From positions 186,001-250,000 of the forward strand of contig NZ_OW150024.1 in NCBI RefSeq assembly GCF_933509905.1: 64,000 nt of DNA. Direction: 5' to 3'. This document shows positions 3,173 through 10,172 of this stretch, in pieces. Position numbers and translations under genes: made by a program. The notes beneath the pieces are model-generated. The model did not search any database. It was not told the origin of the DNA and saw only the letters and a list, made by a program, of their open reading frames with translations. This DNA comes from Trichlorobacter ammonificans. Its GTDB lineage: Bacteria > Desulfobacterota > Desulfuromonadia > Geobacterales > Pseudopelobacteraceae. The stretch's first letter is position 1; each line of letters opens with the position of its first letter.

Positions 3173-4945
3173 TTAACGTTTTTCCGCGCCTGCGCTCCCG
3201 CCTCCCGTTCCCTGCCGTTTGGCCAGTTCGGTGTAGCGTCCCCCCAGCTGCAGCAGTTCCGCCGGTGTTCCCTGTTCCACGATCCGTCCGTCGTCCAGCA
3301 CCAGTACCCGGTGGCAGTCCCGGAAGGCTGAGAGCCGGTGGGAGACCATCAGCACGGTTTTGCCCCCCCAGGCGGCGGAGAGGGCGGTGAGAATTTCATC
3401 CTCGTGTCCCGCATCCACCGCAGCCAGGGGATCATCCAGCAGCAGCAGCGACGGGTTGCGCATCAGGGCCCGGGCCAGGGCCACCCGCTGCCGCTGGCCG
3501 CCGGACAGGGTTACCCCCCGCTCCCCGACCAGGGTATCCAGGCCCTGGGTAAAGCCTTGCAGGTCCGAGGAGAGTCCGGCCAGTTCGGCAGCTTTTGGGC
3601 AGTCCCCGTCACCGCCGTAGGCGATATTCTCGGCAATAGTCCGCGAAAAAAGGGTGGCTTCCTGGGGCAGGTAGCCGATCAGGCTGCGCAGGTCTCCCAG
3701 GTGCAGCTGATTGATATCCGTTCCATCCAGGAAGATCATACCGTCGCTGGCCGGCAGCAGGCGGGGAATCAGTTGCAGCAGGGTTGATTTGCCGCTTCCC
3801 ACCGTACCGGTGATGCCGATCCGCTCGCCCGCTGCCACGGTGAAGGAGATGTCCCGCAGGACCGGCCGTTCGCCGTAGGCGAAGCAGAGGTTTCTGAAGG
3901 CAACCTCCTCCTTGATGCTGCTGATCCGTTGTGCTGCGGCATGTTCCCGTACCGCGGAACGGGCGGCCAGCAGTTCGTTGATCCGGGCCATGGAAGCTCC
4001 GCCCCGCTGGAACAGGGTGAGAATCCAGCCCAGCACCATGGTGGGCCAGACCAGCAGGGCCAGGTAGCCGGAAAACGCGACAAAATCGCCGAGGGTCATG
4101 GCCTGACGGATGACCAGGTGCCCTCCCAGGTAGAGGACCGCCAGGATTCCCGCGCCGGTGGCCAGGGCGATGACCGGAATGATGAACCCCCGCAGCCGGG
4201 CCAGGCTCAGGTTCCGCTCCAGGCAGCGGTTCGCCGCCACCCGGAACTGTTCCCCGAAACGGGTTTCCCGGCAGTAACTCTTGATCAGCAGCGCCGCTGA
4301 AAATGCTTCTTCGGCATGATTGGAGACCCTGGCCAGTTCCTCCTGGGTTTCCCGGGAGAGCGTGAATATCCTCCCGCTTACCGCCTGGACGGTCAGCACC
4401 ATCAGCGGCAACGGCGCCAGGGCTGCCAGGGTGAGCAGGGGATTGATCCGTACCATCAGCCACACGGCGGAACCGTAGAGGATCACCGTGTTCATCAGGC
4501 TCATGATCCCGAAGCCGGTGAGCATCCGGACATTGGTCAGGTCGTTGGAGAAGCGGGAGAGCAGGTCGCCGGTCCGCTCGCGGAAGAAGAAGGTCTGGTC
4601 CAGCTCCAGCAGCCGGGCGAAGAGCGCTTCCCGTACCCGGAATTCGATCAGGCGGGCACCGTGCAGAATAACTGTGCGGGAGAAGATGCGCACCAGGCAA
4701 TAGGCACCGGCCAAAAGCGCAATCAGCAGGGCGTAGCGGTTGGCGGAGGGGGCGGCGGCAACGGGATGGCTCAATTGCTCCACCGCCCGTTTGAGCAGCC
4801 AGGGAACCAGCAGGGCCGCAGCGTTGGTTGCCAGCAGCAACAGGGCACCCAGGGCGTACCGCCCTTTGAGACCCTCGAAGAACGGCAGCAGATGGGCCAG
4901 CAGGCTGAGCGTTGATGTCGGTGCCGTTGTGGTCTGCTTGTCCAT
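3173..4945 (-). CDS. ABC exporter half-transporter (fused permease and ATPase, MdlA/MsbA type)
   Basis: A 590-residue type I exporter half-unit. An N-terminal transmembrane domain of about six helices (residues 20-310) is followed by a nucleotide-binding domain with Walker A TGTVGSGKST, signature LSGGQRQRVALARAL and Walker B LLLLDDPLAAVD, then the H-loop SHRLS. The residue after Walker B Asp is Asp rather than the catalytic Glu, as in MdlA and one half of heterodimeric exporters. A partner half would therefore be expected elsewhere; none is adjacent. The start at 4945 is supported by AGGGAGAACC just upstream; the longer open frame to 5113 has no homology-like features. Substrate unknown. Confidence 0.88.
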   Translation of the reverse strand: MDKQTTTAPTSTLSLLAHLLPFFEGLKGRYALGALLLLATNAAALLVPWLLKRAVEQLSHPVAAAPSANRYALLIALLAGAYCLVRIFSRTVILHGARLIEFRVREALFARLLELDQTFFFRERTGDLLSRFSNDLTNVRMLTGFGIMSLMNTVILYGSAVWLMVRINPLLTLAALAPLPLMVLTVQAVSGRIFTLSRETQEELARVSNHAEEAFSAALLIKSYCRETRFGEQFRVAANRCLERNLSLARLRGFIIPVIALATGAGILAVLYLGGHLVIRQAMTLGDFVAFSGYLALLVWPTMVLGWILTLFQRGGASMARINELLAARSAVREHAAAQRISSIKEEVAFRNLCFAYGERPVLRDISFTVAAGERIGITGTVGSGKSTLLQLIPRLLPASDGMIFLDGTDINQLHLGDLRSLIGYLPQEATLFSRTIAENIAYGGDGDCPKAAELAGLSSDLQGFTQGLDTLVGERGVTLSGGQRQRVALARALMRNPSLLLLDDPLAAVDAGHEDEILTALSAAWGGKTVLMVSHRLSAFRDCHRVLVLDDGRIVEQGTPAELLQLGGRYTELAKRQGTGGGSAGAEKR

Positions 4946-5154
4946 GGTTCTCCCTGCATTCCTGTCAATGCCGTGGCGCACGGAGCGCCGCAGCCGGAAT
5001 CCGATTATCGGGCATTGTGCGGCGATGCACCAGAAGAAATTCACGAGCCCGTTCCGGCGGCCACGGTGCGGGGGCACGTTACCTGCTGGACGAAACGGCC
5101 GGTTATCTGGCACAATGGCCGGGTCGCCATCCGACCTCCGGGAGTACCGTTGTG

Positions 5155-5691
5155 ATGAACCGTTCCGCCCTCTCCGCTTCGCTGCCGCCTGCCGTTTCCT
5201 TTGTGGCCCGCTCCGGCACCGGCAAGACCACCCTGCTGGAAAAGGTGGTTGCCGAACTGAAAGCGCGGGGCTGGCGGCTTGGGGCCATCAAGCACGACGC
5301 CCACCGTTTCGAGATCGACCATCCCGGCAAGGACAGTCACCGGTTGACCGCCGCCGGGGCCGACGTGATGCTGATCTCGTCGCCGGACAAACTGGCCATG
5401 GTGCGGCAGCACCGGGAATCTCCCGCTGTGGAGGAGTTGATCGCCACCTATTTCGCGGATGTGGACCTGGTGCTGACCGAGGGGTTCAAGGGGAGCAGCC
5501 TGCCGAAGATCGAGGTGCACCGGGCAGGCCACGGCAGTACCCTGCTTTGCCGGGATGAACGCCATGACCCCACCCTGGTGGCGGTGGCCAGCGACGAGCC
5601 GCTGGAGCTGGATGTGCCGGTGCTGGACCTGAACGATCCGGCGGCGGTGGCAGGATTTGTCGAGCAGCATTTTCTTGTGAGCCGGACGTAG
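5155..5691 (+). CDS. mobB: Molybdopterin-guanine dinucleotide biosynthesis protein MobB
   Basis: A 178-residue P-loop protein. Walker A lies near residue 20 (ARSGTGKTTLLEK). The MobB-typical stretch IKHDAHRFEIDHPGKDS follows and includes the family's conserved GKDS, with LTEGFKG further on. MobB binds GTP and assists MobA in adding GMP to molybdopterin, giving the bis-MGD cofactor of formate dehydrogenase and related enzymes. The ATG at 5155 is used; an in-frame GTG directly before it (5152) is an alternative. The next gene is tRNA-Sec, which supports the same physiology, because many MGD enzymes are selenoproteins. Walker A reads G-T-G-K-T with a short preceding strand, as in other MobB proteins. 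Confidence 0.9.
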   Translation: MNRSALSASLPPAVSFVARSGTGKTTLLEKVVAELKARGWRLGAIKHDAHRFEIDHPGKDSHRLTAAGADVMLISSPDKLAMVRQHRESPAVEELIATYFADVDLVLTEGFKGSSLPKIEVHRAGHGSTLLCRDERHDPTLVAVASDEPLELDVPVLDLNDPAAVAGFVEQHFLVSRT

Positions 5692-5718: not shown

Positions 5719-5817
5719 GGAAGCACGTCGGTCGCTGGTGGGCCGCCCGGTCTTCAAAACCGGTGGGGTGGGATGGGAAATCTCCCCGGCAGGTTCGATT
5801 CCTGTGTGCTTCCGCCA
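5719..5817 (+). tRNA. selC: tRNA-Sec (anticodon TCA)
   Basis: A 99-nt tRNA with the unusual selenocysteine architecture. The acceptor stem is 8 bp (5719-5726 GGAAGCAC with 5806-5813 GTGCTTCC), the anticodon stem is CCGGT/ACCGG, the loop is CTTCAAA with anticodon TCA at 5754-5756, there is a long variable arm, and the T-arm contains GGTTCGATTCC. A discriminator G and an encoded CCA (5815-5817) end it. It decodes UGA as selenocysteine when a SECIS element is present. It follows mobB by 27 bases and may be cotranscribed with it. No selenoprotein gene was recognised in the window. Confidence 0.95.
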
Positions 5818-6202: not shown

Positions 6203-6235
6203 CACACAAACATATTCGCATGCTCCTGTGCGAAG

Positions 6236-6427
6236 CTTCATACGGATCACGGTGCCCGCAAGGGTGAAAAGGGAAGAGGGGTGTAGTTCCGCAAGGCAAC
6301 GAGTCCCCCGCGGACCCGCCGCTGTAAGCGAGGACAAAGGGCAAGGATGTCACTGGTCGCAAGATCGGGAAGACTGCCCGGAGGATGAATCGCAAGCCAG
6401 AAGACCTGCCTGATCCCGGCACGCACC
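6236..6427 (+). promoter_or_regulatory. Cobalamin riboswitch
   Basis: Conserved cobalamin riboswitch elements occur in the right order: GTGAAAAGGGAAGAGGGGTG (6262-6281), CCCGCCGCTGTAAGCG, the GTCACTG core box, CGGGAAGA, GGAGGATGA, and the B12 box AGCCAGAAGACCTGCC ending at 6410. It sits upstream of an outer-membrane gene and cbiMNQO. Binding of adenosyl- or methylcobalamin is expected to switch the operon off through the terminator at 6478-6516. Confidence 0.93.
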
Positions 6428-6477
6428 AGTCCCGACGGTAAAGGGAGCGTGAAACCAGCAGCAGACGTTGAATACGG

Positions 6478-6516
6478 AACGTCCGCATGATGCCCCGGCG
6501 TCAGCGGACGTTTTTT
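6478..6516 (+). terminator. Riboswitch-linked intrinsic terminator
   Basis: AACGTCCGC (6478-6486) pairs with GCGGACGTT (6504-6512) across a 17-nt loop, followed by a run of six T residues. It lies about 50 nt after the B12 box and is the probable OFF-state expression platform of the cobalamin riboswitch. Confidence 0.85.
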
Positions 6517-6539
6517 CATTGCAGCGCCGGCAGCCTGCT

Positions 6540-6706
6540 GGAAGCAGGCCAGAGCGGTCATCAGAGGCCGGACACCAAGGAAGAGGCGTGCAATGCTCCC
6601 GCAGCCTTGAAGGGAACGAACGCCCAATGAGTGCCACTGTCGTGGAATGCCCTGATGGGAAGGCGGGCACGTAGGTGGCCCGCAGCCGGCAGAGTTGTCC
6701 GGGCCG
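6540..6706 (+). promoter_or_regulatory. Probable second (divergent) cobalamin riboswitch
   Basis: Downstream of the first terminator the leader again shows cobalamin-riboswitch-like elements in order: AAGGAAGAGGCGTGCAATG (6577-6595), CTCCCGCAGCC, the exact GCCACTG box (6633-6639), TGGGAAGGCGGGC (6656-6668), and a degenerate B12-box-like CCCGCAGCCGGCAGAG (6680-6695). It has no following T-run. The porin gene's ribosome-binding site GAGGGAG (6714-6720) lies just after it, so control of translation start is plausible. Alignment by eye to the first element supports homology, but several conserved positions differ. Confidence 0.55.
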
Positions 6707-6728
6707 CTAACCCGAGGGAGCACCGAGT

Positions 6729-7541
6729 GTGAAGCGAAGCGTAAGTGTAGTGGCACTATGCCTGTTGTTGTCGGCTGCAACCGCCTTTGCCGGTCCGCCG
6801 CATGCTGCCGACGACGCCGTCACCGACGACGCCGTCACCGTTGCCGTCGGCAGCATCGAGGTGGAGTTGAACGGCTCCTATGCTTACAGCGACAGGACCA
6901 ACGACGGCGTCAACACGCAACAACACCTTTTCGACGGCTCAGTGAAGATCATCACCGGTCTCTACAAGGACTGGGCCATCTCTCTGGAAGTTCCCTATAC
7001 CTTCAGTGAGCGGGTACGGAAAGCCGAGCAGCTGGATAGCGATATTGAGGGTTTTGGCGACATGACCCTGGAAGTTAAATGGGCCTTTGCCGAACTGGCC
7101 GGCATCAAATTCGCCATCAAGCCGACCGTGATCATCCCCACCGGCAGATACAGCGCCGGCCTGTCGGAAGGGCGCTGGCAGCCGGGTGTCGTCCTGATCG
7201 CCACCAGGGAGTTCGAGGGCGGCACGTACGCGCTGCATGCCAACCTCGGCTATGAGCACCACAGCTACCGTACCGGTGGCGCCCAGGCCGAGAACCGCAG
7301 CGGCCTGCTGTCCGGCTCCATCGCCGGTGAGGCGGTACTGCTGAAGGGGTTGTTCATCACGGCTGACTTCGGTCTCTCCACCAACCAGGACAAGACGTCG
7401 AACGTGGTGCCGGTCTACGCGATGACCGGGGCTAGTTACGAGATCAACAAACATCTCGACGCCAATGTCGGCATCAAGGTGGGGCTGACCCGTGCGGAAG
7501 ACGACGTCACCGCTCTCTACGGACTGGTGCTGAAGTTCTAG
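6729..7541 (+). CDS. Outer-membrane beta-barrel protein under cobalamin riboswitch control
   Basis: A 270-residue protein starting at GTG 6729, eight bases after GAGGGAG. Residues 1-21 are a signal peptide ending AFA. The mature N-terminus is His/Asp-rich, with a directly repeated DDAVT encoded by a duplicated 15-bp unit. The body has amphipathic beta-strands and ends in LYGLVLKF, a terminal-Phe barrel signature. It resembles the transporter proteins grouped with the phenol meta-pathway outer-membrane family. It is the first gene behind the B12 riboswitches and precedes cbiMNQO, so a role as an outer-membrane channel for cobalt or a cobalt chelate is inferred. It is not a TonB-dependent BtuB-type receptor: it is far too small and lacks a TonB box. 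Confidence 0.75.
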   Translation: MKRSVSVVALCLLLSAATAFAGPPHAADDAVTDDAVTVAVGSIEVELNGSYAYSDRTNDGVNTQQHLFDGSVKIITGLYKDWAISLEVPYTFSERVRKAEQLDSDIEGFGDMTLEVKWAFAELAGIKFAIKPTVIIPTGRYSAGLSEGRWQPGVVLIATREFEGGTYALHANLGYEHHSYRTGGAQAENRSGLLSGSIAGEAVLLKGLFITADFGLSTNQDKTSNVVPVYAMTGASYEINKHLDANVGIKVGLTRAEDDVTALYGLVLKF

Positions 7542-7580
7542 GTAGCCGTCCAACCCCTGTGACACCAAGGAGAAACGATT

Positions 7581-8258
7581 ATGCATATCATGGAAGGATT
7601 TTTGCCGGTCAAGCATGCGGTGGGGTGGAGCGTCGCTTCTGCCCCCTTCGTGGCCTACGGACTGTACAGCATCAACAAGCGGATCAGAGAGAACCCGGAG
7701 CAGCGGATGCTGCTGGGGGTGGCCACCGCCTTTACCTTTGTGCTGTCGGCCCTGAAGCTGCCGTCGGTCACCGGCAGCTGCTCCCACCCCACCGGCACCG
7801 GCCTGGGGGCGGTGTTGTTCGGGCCGGCAGCCATGGCGCCCATCGGCGGCGTGGTGCTGCTGTTTCAGGCGCTGCTGCTGGCCCATGGCGGCCTGACCAC
7901 CCTGGGGGCCAACATCTTCTCCATGGGTATTGTGGGGCCCTTTGCCGCCTTTGCCATCTACCGCCTGGCCAGGGCGGCCCGCCTCCCCTTCGGCGTGGGC
8001 ATCTTTCTGGCAGCGGCCCTGGGGGACCTCCTGACCTACGTCACCACCTCGGCGCAACTGGCCCTGGCCTTCCCCGATCCGGCAGGGGGCTTTGCCGCCT
8101 CATTCGCCAAATTTTCCGGCATCTTCGCCGTGACCCAGCTCCCGCTTGCCGTCAGCGAGGGACTAGTGACCGTGGTGGTCTTCAATGCCCTGGTCCGCTT
8201 TAATTCACGGGAGTTGCAGGACTTGAAGGTCGTTTCCCGCCAGGAGGTGCAGGCATGA
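7581..8258 (+). CDS. cbiM: Cobalt ECF transporter substrate-binding membrane protein CbiM
   Basis: A 225-residue integral membrane protein with the N-terminus MHIMEGFLP. The free amino end and His2 of this motif are known metal ligands in the CbiM/NikM family. About six hydrophobic segments follow, with the family pattern [17 protein letters not shown] near residues 69-85 and [17 protein letters not shown]. CbiM captures Co2+ and determines specificity. It has an AAGGAGA ribosome-binding site and overlaps cbiN by four bases. Nickel specificity cannot be excluded from sequence alone, but the cobalamin riboswitch upstream argues for cobalt. Confidence 0.95.
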
Positions 8259-8584
8259 AACGGTTGCAGAATCTCATATTGCTGACCCTGGTGGCTATCC
8301 TGGTCGTTATCCCGCTGGTGATGATCAAAAAGCCCGAACCGGGACCGGACGGCAAGGAAGTGAAAATCTTTGCCGGAGCCGATGACCAGGCAAGAGACGC
8401 CATCGGCACCATAAACCCGGCGTACCAGCCCTGGATGGAATCACTCATGGAGCCCCCCAGCGGCGAAGTAGCCTCCCTGCTGTTCGCGTTCCAGGCGGCC
8501 CTGGGGGCGGGCTTTATCGGCTACTGGTACGGCAGTTCCTCAACCCGCGCCAAGCTGCGGCGGGAGCAGGAAAAGCAGGCATGA
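8255..8584 (+). CDS. cbiN: Cobalt transport protein CbiN
   Basis: A 109-residue protein with two transmembrane helices (about 7-24 and 75-95) and an intervening extracytoplasmic loop containing [12 protein letters not shown], the family hallmark. CbiN assists metal loading of CbiM. It overlaps cbiM (ATGA, 8255-8258) and cbiQ (8581-8584), so all four subunits are translationally coupled. The C-terminus is basic ([13 protein letters not shown]), consistent with a cytoplasmic tail. Confidence 0.94.
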
Positions 8585-9327
8585 TGCTGCTGGAACAGTA
8601 TGCCGCCGCCAACCGCTGGCGGCGGGTGACGCCGGCGGCCAAGGGGCTGTTCACCCTGTGCGGGTTCGTGGCCGTATTCAGCGCGTCCCGTCCCGCCGTG
8701 GCCGCCGGTCTGGCCCTGGTGCTGGCGGCGGTTACCCTGCTGGGGGCCGGCGTTCCGCTGACGGGCTACCTGCGGGTGGCGGCCCCGGCCCTGTTCTTGC
8801 TCGTCGCCAGCGCCCTGCCCCTGCTTTTCTCCCTGTCCCTGTCCGGTCCGGAGGGGCTGTCCCTGCGCCCGGTGCCGACGGAGGCGGGCCGGGTGGCCCT
8901 GGTCTGTACCCGTTCCCTGGGAGGGCTGGCAGCCTTGCTCTTCCTGGGGTTCACCACGCCGATGAACGACACCATCGCCCTGCTGCGTCGTCTGAAGGCC
9001 CCGGAGGTGCTGCTGGACCTGATGACCCTCTGCTACCGCATGCTGTTCGTACTGTCAGAAGCGCTACATGACATCCGTACGGCCCAAACGGCCCGCCTCG
9101 GCTACGCTACGAACCGACTGGCCCTGCGCTCCCTCGGCAGCCTGGCAGCCAACCTCACGGTGCAGGTCTGGCAGCGTTCCCATGCCCTGCACCAGGCGGC
9201 CCAGGCCCGTGCCAACGATGGTCCCCTGTGCTTTCTGGAGCCGGACTACTCCTCCAAGACCGCCGGGCTGGCTGTTGCGGTCCTGGCGGGGGGCTCTCTG
9301 ATTCTGGTGTCGGTGGTCGCTGCGTGA
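8581..9327 (+). CDS. cbiQ: Cobalt ECF transporter transmembrane (T) component CbiQ
   Basis: A 248-residue membrane protein with several hydrophobic segments (about 25-60, 66-85, 100-130 and 228-248). It carries the coupling-helix region typical of energy-coupling factor T components, including the conserved Ala-Arg-Gly-like motif area around residues 155-200 (AQTARLGYAT). CbiQ transmits ATP hydrolysis by CbiO to CbiM. It overlaps cbiN by four bases, and its stop overlaps the GTG of cbiO (GTGA, 9324-9327). Confidence 0.92.
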   Translation: MMLLEQYAAANRWRRVTPAAKGLFTLCGFVAVFSASRPAVAAGLALVLAAVTLLGAGVPLTGYLRVAAPALFLLVASALPLLFSLSLSGPEGLSLRPVPTEAGRVALVCTRSLGGLAALLFLGFTTPMNDTIALLRRLKAPEVLLDLMTLCYRMLFVLSEALHDIRTAQTARLGYATNRLALRSLGSLAANLTVQVWQRSHALHQAAQARANDGPLCFLEPDYSSKTAGLAVAVLAGGSLILVSVVAA

Positions 9328-10172
9328 GGTGCGGCAGGGACGAAATCCTGGAACTGCGGCAGGTGGGTTTTCGCTACCCGGACGGCAGCGTAGGGCTGGA
9401 CGACTGTTCCCTGGTCATCCGGCGGGGCAGCCGCACCGTGCTGCTGGGGCCCAACGGTGCCGGCAAGACCACCCTGTTCCTGCACTGTAACGGTATTCTG
9501 CGACCGGAGAGCGGCCGGGTGCTGTTTGAAGGCCGTCCCCTGGACTATGGTCGGCAGGGATTGCGGGAGTTGCGCTCCCGGGTGGGGCTGGTGTTCCAGA
9601 ATCCGGACAGCCAGCTTTTTTCCGCCAGCGTGCGGGAGGATGTCTCCTTCGGCCCCATGAACCTGGGGTTGGGGCGGCATGAAGTGCGGGAGCGGCTGGA
9701 ACGGGCCCTGGAGGCGGTGGGGATGGCCGACTGCGCCGACAAGCCGGTGCACTCCTTAAGCCACGGCCAGAAGAAGCGGGTCTCCATCGCCGGAGTACTG
9801 GCGATGCAGCCGCAGGTGCTGATCCTCGACGAGCCCACTGCCGGACTTGACTTCAGGATGCAACAGGAACTCCTTGGGGTGCTGCAGCAGTTGCATGGGC
9901 AGGGGATCACCATTGTCATGGCAACCCACGATCTGGACTTGGCCTACGCCTGGGCCGACGACGTCTGTCTGATGGTCGGCGGCCGGCCGGCAGCGCGGTT
10001 TGCGGCCGACCAGTTCCCGCAACAGGCCGGACTGCTGGAGCGGCACGGCTTGGGCGTCCCCCGGGCGGCCCTGCTCCATCCCCTGCTGGTGGCCCGGGGG
10101 GCTTTATCGGCCAACGGGGCCCCACCCCGCTCCTGCGCCGAGCTGGCACGGCTGTTGGCGGCTACAGACTGA
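9324..10172 (+). CDS. cbiO: Cobalt ECF transporter ATPase CbiO
   Basis: A 282-residue ABC ATPase: Walker A GPNGAGKTTLFLH, Q-loop VFQNPDSQLFS (typical of ECF ATPases), signature LSHGQKKRVSIAGVLA, Walker B VLILDEPTAGLD, and H-loop ATHDLDLA. The start is taken as GTG 9324, because it overlaps the cbiQ stop in the same coupled manner as the rest of the operon; the longer open frame inside cbiQ is a shadow. Its 3' end overlaps the convergent MATE gene by 11 bases, so no terminator separates them. Confidence 0.94.
   Translation: MRCGRDEILELRQVGFRYPDGSVGLDDCSLVIRRGSRTVLLGPNGAGKTTLFLHCNGILRPESGRVLFEGRPLDYGRQGLRELRSRVGLVFQNPDSQLFSASVREDVSFGPMNLGLGRHEVRERLERALEAVGMADCADKPVHSLSHGQKKRVSIAGVLAMQPQVLILDEPTAGLDFRMQQELLGVLQQLHGQGITIVMATHDLDLAYAWADDVCLMVGGRPAARFAADQFPQQAGLLERHGLGVPRAALLHPLLVARGALSANGAPPRSCAELARLLAATD

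Follow-up and report, generated by a model that had tools for sequence, protein, structure and literature searches.

The 64,000-nt stretch of Trichlorobacter ammonificans DNA analysed here (the window) contains a forward-strand operon at 6729–10172, in which an outer-membrane beta-barrel gene of the PF13557 family (6729–7541, with a GTG start at 6729) precedes the cobalt ECF transporter genes cbiM (7581–8258), cbiN (8255–8584), cbiQ (8581–9327) and cbiO (9228–10172 as its open reading frame is listed, the true start probably lying farther downstream). Directly upstream of the operon is a selenocysteine tRNA gene (5719–5813), which adjoins a MobB-like gene (4912–5691). The barrel gene also adjoins cbiM in genomes G019, G027, G039, G059 and G073. 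A search of genome contigs with the barrel protein returned 11 relatives, none of them another copy of this genome, while a plasmid search returned a single weak relative on a Trichlorobacter lovleyi plasmid and a CbiM search found no relatives on viral contigs. Two relatives have an in-frame TGA within a barrel gene that lies behind a tandem leader (G039:C146:20144-20936 and G075:C4:2016-2333), which may mark a pseudogene or a selenocysteine codon. Two cobalamin riboswitch matches are found in the operon's leader. Elsewhere in this genome there is just one more cobalamin riboswitch (L002, G000:C1:2252367-2252497; 131 bases, 50.1 bits), which is without the large peripheral arm and lies upstream of an ORF whose sequence is CobU-like.

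The first match, element 1 (6232–6427, forward strand), is an intact canonical cobalamin riboswitch aptamer that covers the full RF00174 model (1–189 of 189), scoring 104 bits (E = 6e-25) and exceeding the gathering threshold. Compared to its relatives, 3 of 127 conserved positions are altered, and 2 of these 3 are both sides of one terminator pair. On the 3′ side of the aptamer, a fold of 6405–6530 yields a forward-strand hairpin at 6420–6451 (CACGC..GCGTG, with an inner TCCC..GGGA), which the alignment shows to be kept in the tandem relatives and which is probably a P13-type element of the expression platform. Further downstream, an antiterminator hairpin (GACGTT..AACGTC, 6464–6483, forward strand; seen in the sequence and in a fold of 6425–6500) overlaps the 5′ arm of the terminator, and relatives have the same layout with GACTT..AAGTC. 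The preliminary description had placed a transcription terminator at 6478–6516, and an intrinsic terminator is indeed found there on the forward strand (AACGTCCGC..GCGGACGTT, followed by a T-run); its two arms have changed together relative to the relatives' AAGTCCGC..GCGGACTT. A consensus scan found no sigma-70 promoter between elements 1 and 2.

The same description had proposed that a second cobalamin riboswitch stands in tandem with the first, and the Rfam covariance search bears this out, giving a second match above the cut-off at 6511–6716 with 34.3 bits (gathering score 31.5). This match, element 2, was recovered again in a whole-genome RF00174 search (E = 6e-7); a fast-filter Rfam scan of the whole window reported element 1 and not element 2. 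The match is not due to chance, since the same riboswitch subtype recurs at 49 other loci of the order. According to the subtype covariance model R1, element 2 occupies 6565–6721 on the forward strand with a score of 87.6 bits, compared to 54.1 bits for element 1, and it is probably a decayed copy of a predicted translational cobalamin riboswitch subtype. The conserved blocks that had been noticed in it are present, with an exact GCCACTG at 6633–6639 and GGGAAGGC at 6657–6664. It was likewise correctly described as having no T-run after it and as ending just before the ribosome binding site: it ends against the forward-strand Shine-Dalgarno sequence GAGGGAG (6714–6720), upstream of the GTG at 6729. 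An R1 search found no second copy of the subtype in this genome.

A nucleotide search of the order found relatives of element 2 in many genomes, often 150–400 bases downstream of a canonical riboswitch, and they align as a tight subtype that is distinct from the canonical one. Its consensus consists, in order, of P2, GAGGAAGAGGGGUG, P4, CUGCCCCGCAG (P5/L5), CCGUAAAGGGAACGAAnGCCC and a variable stem, then GCCACUG..UGGGAAGGCGGGCAAGUAGG, GCCCUGAGCCGGAAnACC, the 3′ strand of P2 and CGnGGGAGG, which is the Shine-Dalgarno sequence; between P2 and the GGGAA block, the subtype has no counterpart of the canonical hairpin. Across 23 members, 96.5% of the cells in the 33-pair structure are paired and 11 of 33 pairs have changed on both sides, a degree of covariation that none of 500 shuffles reached in the family without the window copy. 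R1 was built from 23 sequences, which are high-scoring by construction, with the window copy left out, and it found 26 further members. In total, R1 identifies 49 members besides the window copy in 141 genomes of the order, with scores of 110–184 bits; a match truncated at a contig end is among the two lowest-scoring, and complete members score 116–184 bits. Canonical riboswitches score at most 84 bits with R1, leaving the window copy alone between the canonical and subtype ranges. Two segments are nearly invariant: 48 of 50 full-length members match GCTGCCCCGCAGC exactly, and 48 of 50 members have CGnGGG at the expected Shine-Dalgarno place. Phylum-wide, the subtype is matched in 29 of 395 genomes, and at the five loci checked outside the order it stands alone, followed by TonB-receptor-like or ABC-permease-like genes where the ORF was read. 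Within the order, the genes behind it include TonB-dependent B12 receptors, CbiZ, CbiM and the barrel gene.

Further, 22 of the 49 subtype members in the 141 genomes lie behind a canonical riboswitch. In these tandems, 21 of the canonical partners score at least 88 bits with RF00174, and the remaining one scores only 33.8 bits because of an insert. A terminator occurs 77–95 nt past the canonical aptamer in all 22, whereas none was found after any copy of the subtype. The window and its 22 relatives thus share a bi-mechanism layout, in which the first riboswitch has a terminator and the second, near the start codon, has none. The layout predicts that the 22 relatives apply transcriptional and then translational OFF control to cobalt and B12 uptake.

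Several subtype loci have additional features. In the B12 box of the subtype, the nucleotide preceding ACC can be G, T, A or C and is a possible ligand-tuning position; by eye, GGAAGACC occurs mostly in tandem members and GGAATACC mostly in solo members. At five loci where a solo subtype precedes cbiM (L099, L128, L132, L133 and L135), a small leader ORF (about 20 codons, TTG start; for example, LFAHLIRFPAADTSPDYRVY) comes first; where the start of cbiM was read, it lies about 107–110 bases past the subtype. A TCTCCCG stretch in these leaders could cover the ribosome site of cbiM itself, an arrangement that suggests control of cbiM through translation of the leader peptide. At eight other solo loci (L130, L137, L152, L163, L134, L136, L143 and L147), the subtype is followed by ORFs of 28–42 codons (for example, MPRFT.FSPV...) that have no long gene immediately after them and are possibly riboswitch-controlled leader peptides or small RNAs. 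Riboswitch loops also carry insertions. In the subtype loop of L053 and L056 and, by eye, in the canonical P4 loop of L153, L154 and L165, the inserted element is a dispersed repeat roughly 120 bases long. Of 15 genomes of the genus, 10 carry this repeat, with as many as 27 matches in a single genome, and the window's genome has none; no Rfam match to it was reported in the loci scanned. L048 and L136 have another, different insert in the subtype riboswitch loop; it is about 150 bases long, and its centre, GTAC..AGTACGT, is similar.

Compared to this family, the window copy has lost essential parts. An 8-nt deletion near 6599/6600 (TGCTCCC|GCAGCC at 6594–6606, forward strand, in the alignments) has removed P5/L5, the hairpin of the proposed loop-loop contact, and left one unit of the 8-base repeat CCCGCTGC|CCCGCAGC. 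Element 2 had already been credited with a degenerate B12 box, correctly, although the deletion is the more telling feature. The relict box reads AGCCGGCAGAGTTGTCC (6684–6700, forward strand, by alignment) where the family has AGCCGGAAnACCnnTCC; its ACC is missing, so that it departs from the intact form AGCC..GA.ACC, and among the members listed only L162 and the window copy are without a AGCCGGAAnACC-type core. Overall, 16 of 84 conserved positions are altered in element 2, while the next highest count is 9 (in L173) and most members have 0–1; similarly, 8 of 33 model pairs are broken, with 4 in the next highest member. Its R1 score is the lowest of all, falling outside the subtype's range of 116–184 bits for complete relatives. 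The excess of altered positions in element 2 over element 1 has a Fisher p of 8e-5, or 0.02 when the deletion is counted as one event, in a test that ignores relatedness. Much of the element's core is still conserved, so the decay would be recent or partial.

Orthologous operons provide a comparison. In G073, a genome of the same genus, the order is the same as in the window (canonical riboswitch, subtype, barrel gene, cbiM) and the subtype copy is intact, with an R1 score of 171.9 bits. In G058, the canonical riboswitch, the barrel gene and cbiM are present and the subtype is absent. The second switch has therefore come or gone along the operon's history, and in the one genome sequence of the window locus it appears to be on its way out.

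The explanation that we consider probable is that the leader once provided two-level OFF control, that element 2 has since decayed, and that the operon is now controlled by element 1 alone. Element 1 would act as an adenosylcobalamin-type riboswitch, where ligand binding favours the terminator and transcription ends. In intact relatives, transcripts that escape termination would expose aptamer 2, whose L5 loop (CCCCG) could then form a kissing loop with CGnGGG at the Shine-Dalgarno sequence, blocking translation. L5 and CGnGGG hardly vary on either side, so there is no covariation to read; the variable third base of CGnGGG suggests a bulge in the L5 pairing. A peripheral arm with GCCACTG and GGGAAGG is a mark of the AdoCbl-type (Cbl-I) aptamers. 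Because the subtype keeps this arm and a canonical-like B12-box core, its ligand is most likely an adenosylcobalamin-type corrinoid, an assignment based on the general features of Cbl-I aptamers together with gene context. In the window's lineage, an ancestral element 2 would have hidden the Shine-Dalgarno sequence by pairing L5 with CGAGGG, until P5/L5 was deleted by slippage between two 8-base repeats; the B12 box would also have lost its ACC, and P3, P4 and P6 some of their pairs. The operon is now probably under element 1 alone, with a relict left in its leader.

It is doubtful, though worth weighing, that element 2 was instead remodelled and governs the ribosome binding site through new pairings, either without a ligand or with an altered one. 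The Desulfuromonadales, as identified by named relatives, would then have a conserved two-level cobalamin unit whose second half, in the window, has become a remodelled leader that no longer needs or prefers adenosylcobalamin. Possible compensatory changes in element 2, namely a G-C to A-U change in P3 and a new C-G pair lengthening P2, are consistent with remodelling, as is the perfect 7-base complementarity between TGCTCCC (6594–6600) and GGGAGCA (6716–6722) in the Shine-Dalgarno region. However, the minimum-energy folds skip this pairing and leave the Shine-Dalgarno sequence partly open, and the pairing is known from one sequence, without conservation; as an anti-Shine-Dalgarno candidate it was rejected.

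It is improbable that both elements are functional and that the window retains a transcription-then-translation cobalamin switch as in its relatives. The tandem architecture is kept, element 2 scores above the Rfam cut-off, the CGAGGG motif adjacent to the Shine-Dalgarno sequence is retained and several core segments are unchanged; against this, P5/L5 and the B12-box ACC are gone, though nearly all complete relatives have both, and the broken pairs in element 2 also weigh against its function. The proposal that a terminator output is followed by a ribosome-site output is supported for the family, with its 22 tandems among 49 relatives, and probably fails in the window, where the second copy has lost these parts. 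The steeper response, or double control, that had been expected of the pair is for the same reason unlikely at the window locus.

A dual-ligand gate, in which the two elements sense AdoCbl and MeCbl respectively, had also been suggested and is very improbable. Two distinct aptamer subtypes do share one leader, and the subtype's B12 box is variable at the position just ahead of ACC; yet the subtype has the large Cbl-I-type peripheral arm, its B12-box core is canonical-like, and the B12 and cobalt uptake genes that it controls are of the same kinds. The window copy probably binds nothing, and no support for such a gate was found. Finally, although the conserved blocks stand in the same order in both elements, the idea that element 2 arose by local duplication of element 1 and never functioned by itself was rejected, because element 2 belongs to a separate subtype that has its own covariation and is often found alone, in many genomes, and because its R1 score is far above that of element 1.

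Decay of element 2 beside an intact element 1 remains the preferred reading, and it makes the window a natural half-knockout beside intact orthologues, in which the second switch's contribution is directly testable. It also cautions that a riboswitch may be dead even though its match passes the Rfam cut-off.

Among known systems, the canonical Cbl-I riboswitch (RF00174) is matched in full by element 1 and shares P4, P7, P8 and the GCCACTG/GGGAAGG blocks with element 2. Element 2's subtype differs from it by lacking the hairpin that lies between P1/P2 and the GGGAA block, where a nearly continuous P2-P3 helix takes its place, and by a loop partner that would be located within the Shine-Dalgarno sequence; P5/L5 is additionally missing from the window copy. 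The btuB-type riboswitch of E. coli is a translational OFF switch of the B12 receptor, hiding the ribosome binding site by a loop-loop contact. A similar contact is proposed here for the subtype, but the subtype often lies behind a separate terminating riboswitch, and its loop partner would be the Shine-Dalgarno sequence itself. In Geobacter and Desulfuromonas, the Cobalamin section of a 2004 delta-proteobacteria survey places B12-elements on B12 synthesis and transport genes and on the cluster that holds cbiMNQO (PMC545781). The window likewise has cobalamin riboswitches ahead of cbiMNQO; that section counts single elements per genome and mentions neither a cobalamin tandem nor a subtype adjacent to the Shine-Dalgarno sequence (PMC545781). 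Likewise, cobalamin-cobalamin pairs go unmentioned in the main text of a 2025 survey of contiguous riboswitches (PMC12452182), and a search of the open-access literature found no cobalamin bi-mechanism tandem. In a review of tandem riboswitches, SAM classes are the only ones for which bi-mechanism pairs are named, and 26 AdoCbl doublets are counted as pseudo-cooperative (PMC9481103). Compared to these SAM-only listings, a bi-mechanism cobalamin tandem that recurs in one order is newly seen here, with the window as a half-broken example, and it would extend the two-level, terminate-then-block design to cobalamin across a bacterial order, where it would act on B12 and cobalt uptake genes. A close likeness is to the SAM-II/SAM-V tandem, which also has a terminator-linked aptamer first and an aptamer of a different subtype at the ribosome binding site of the same gene, and here too both partners are presumed to bind one ligand class; the present system differs in using cobalamin rather than SAM and, in the window, in its probably broken second partner (PMC9481103).
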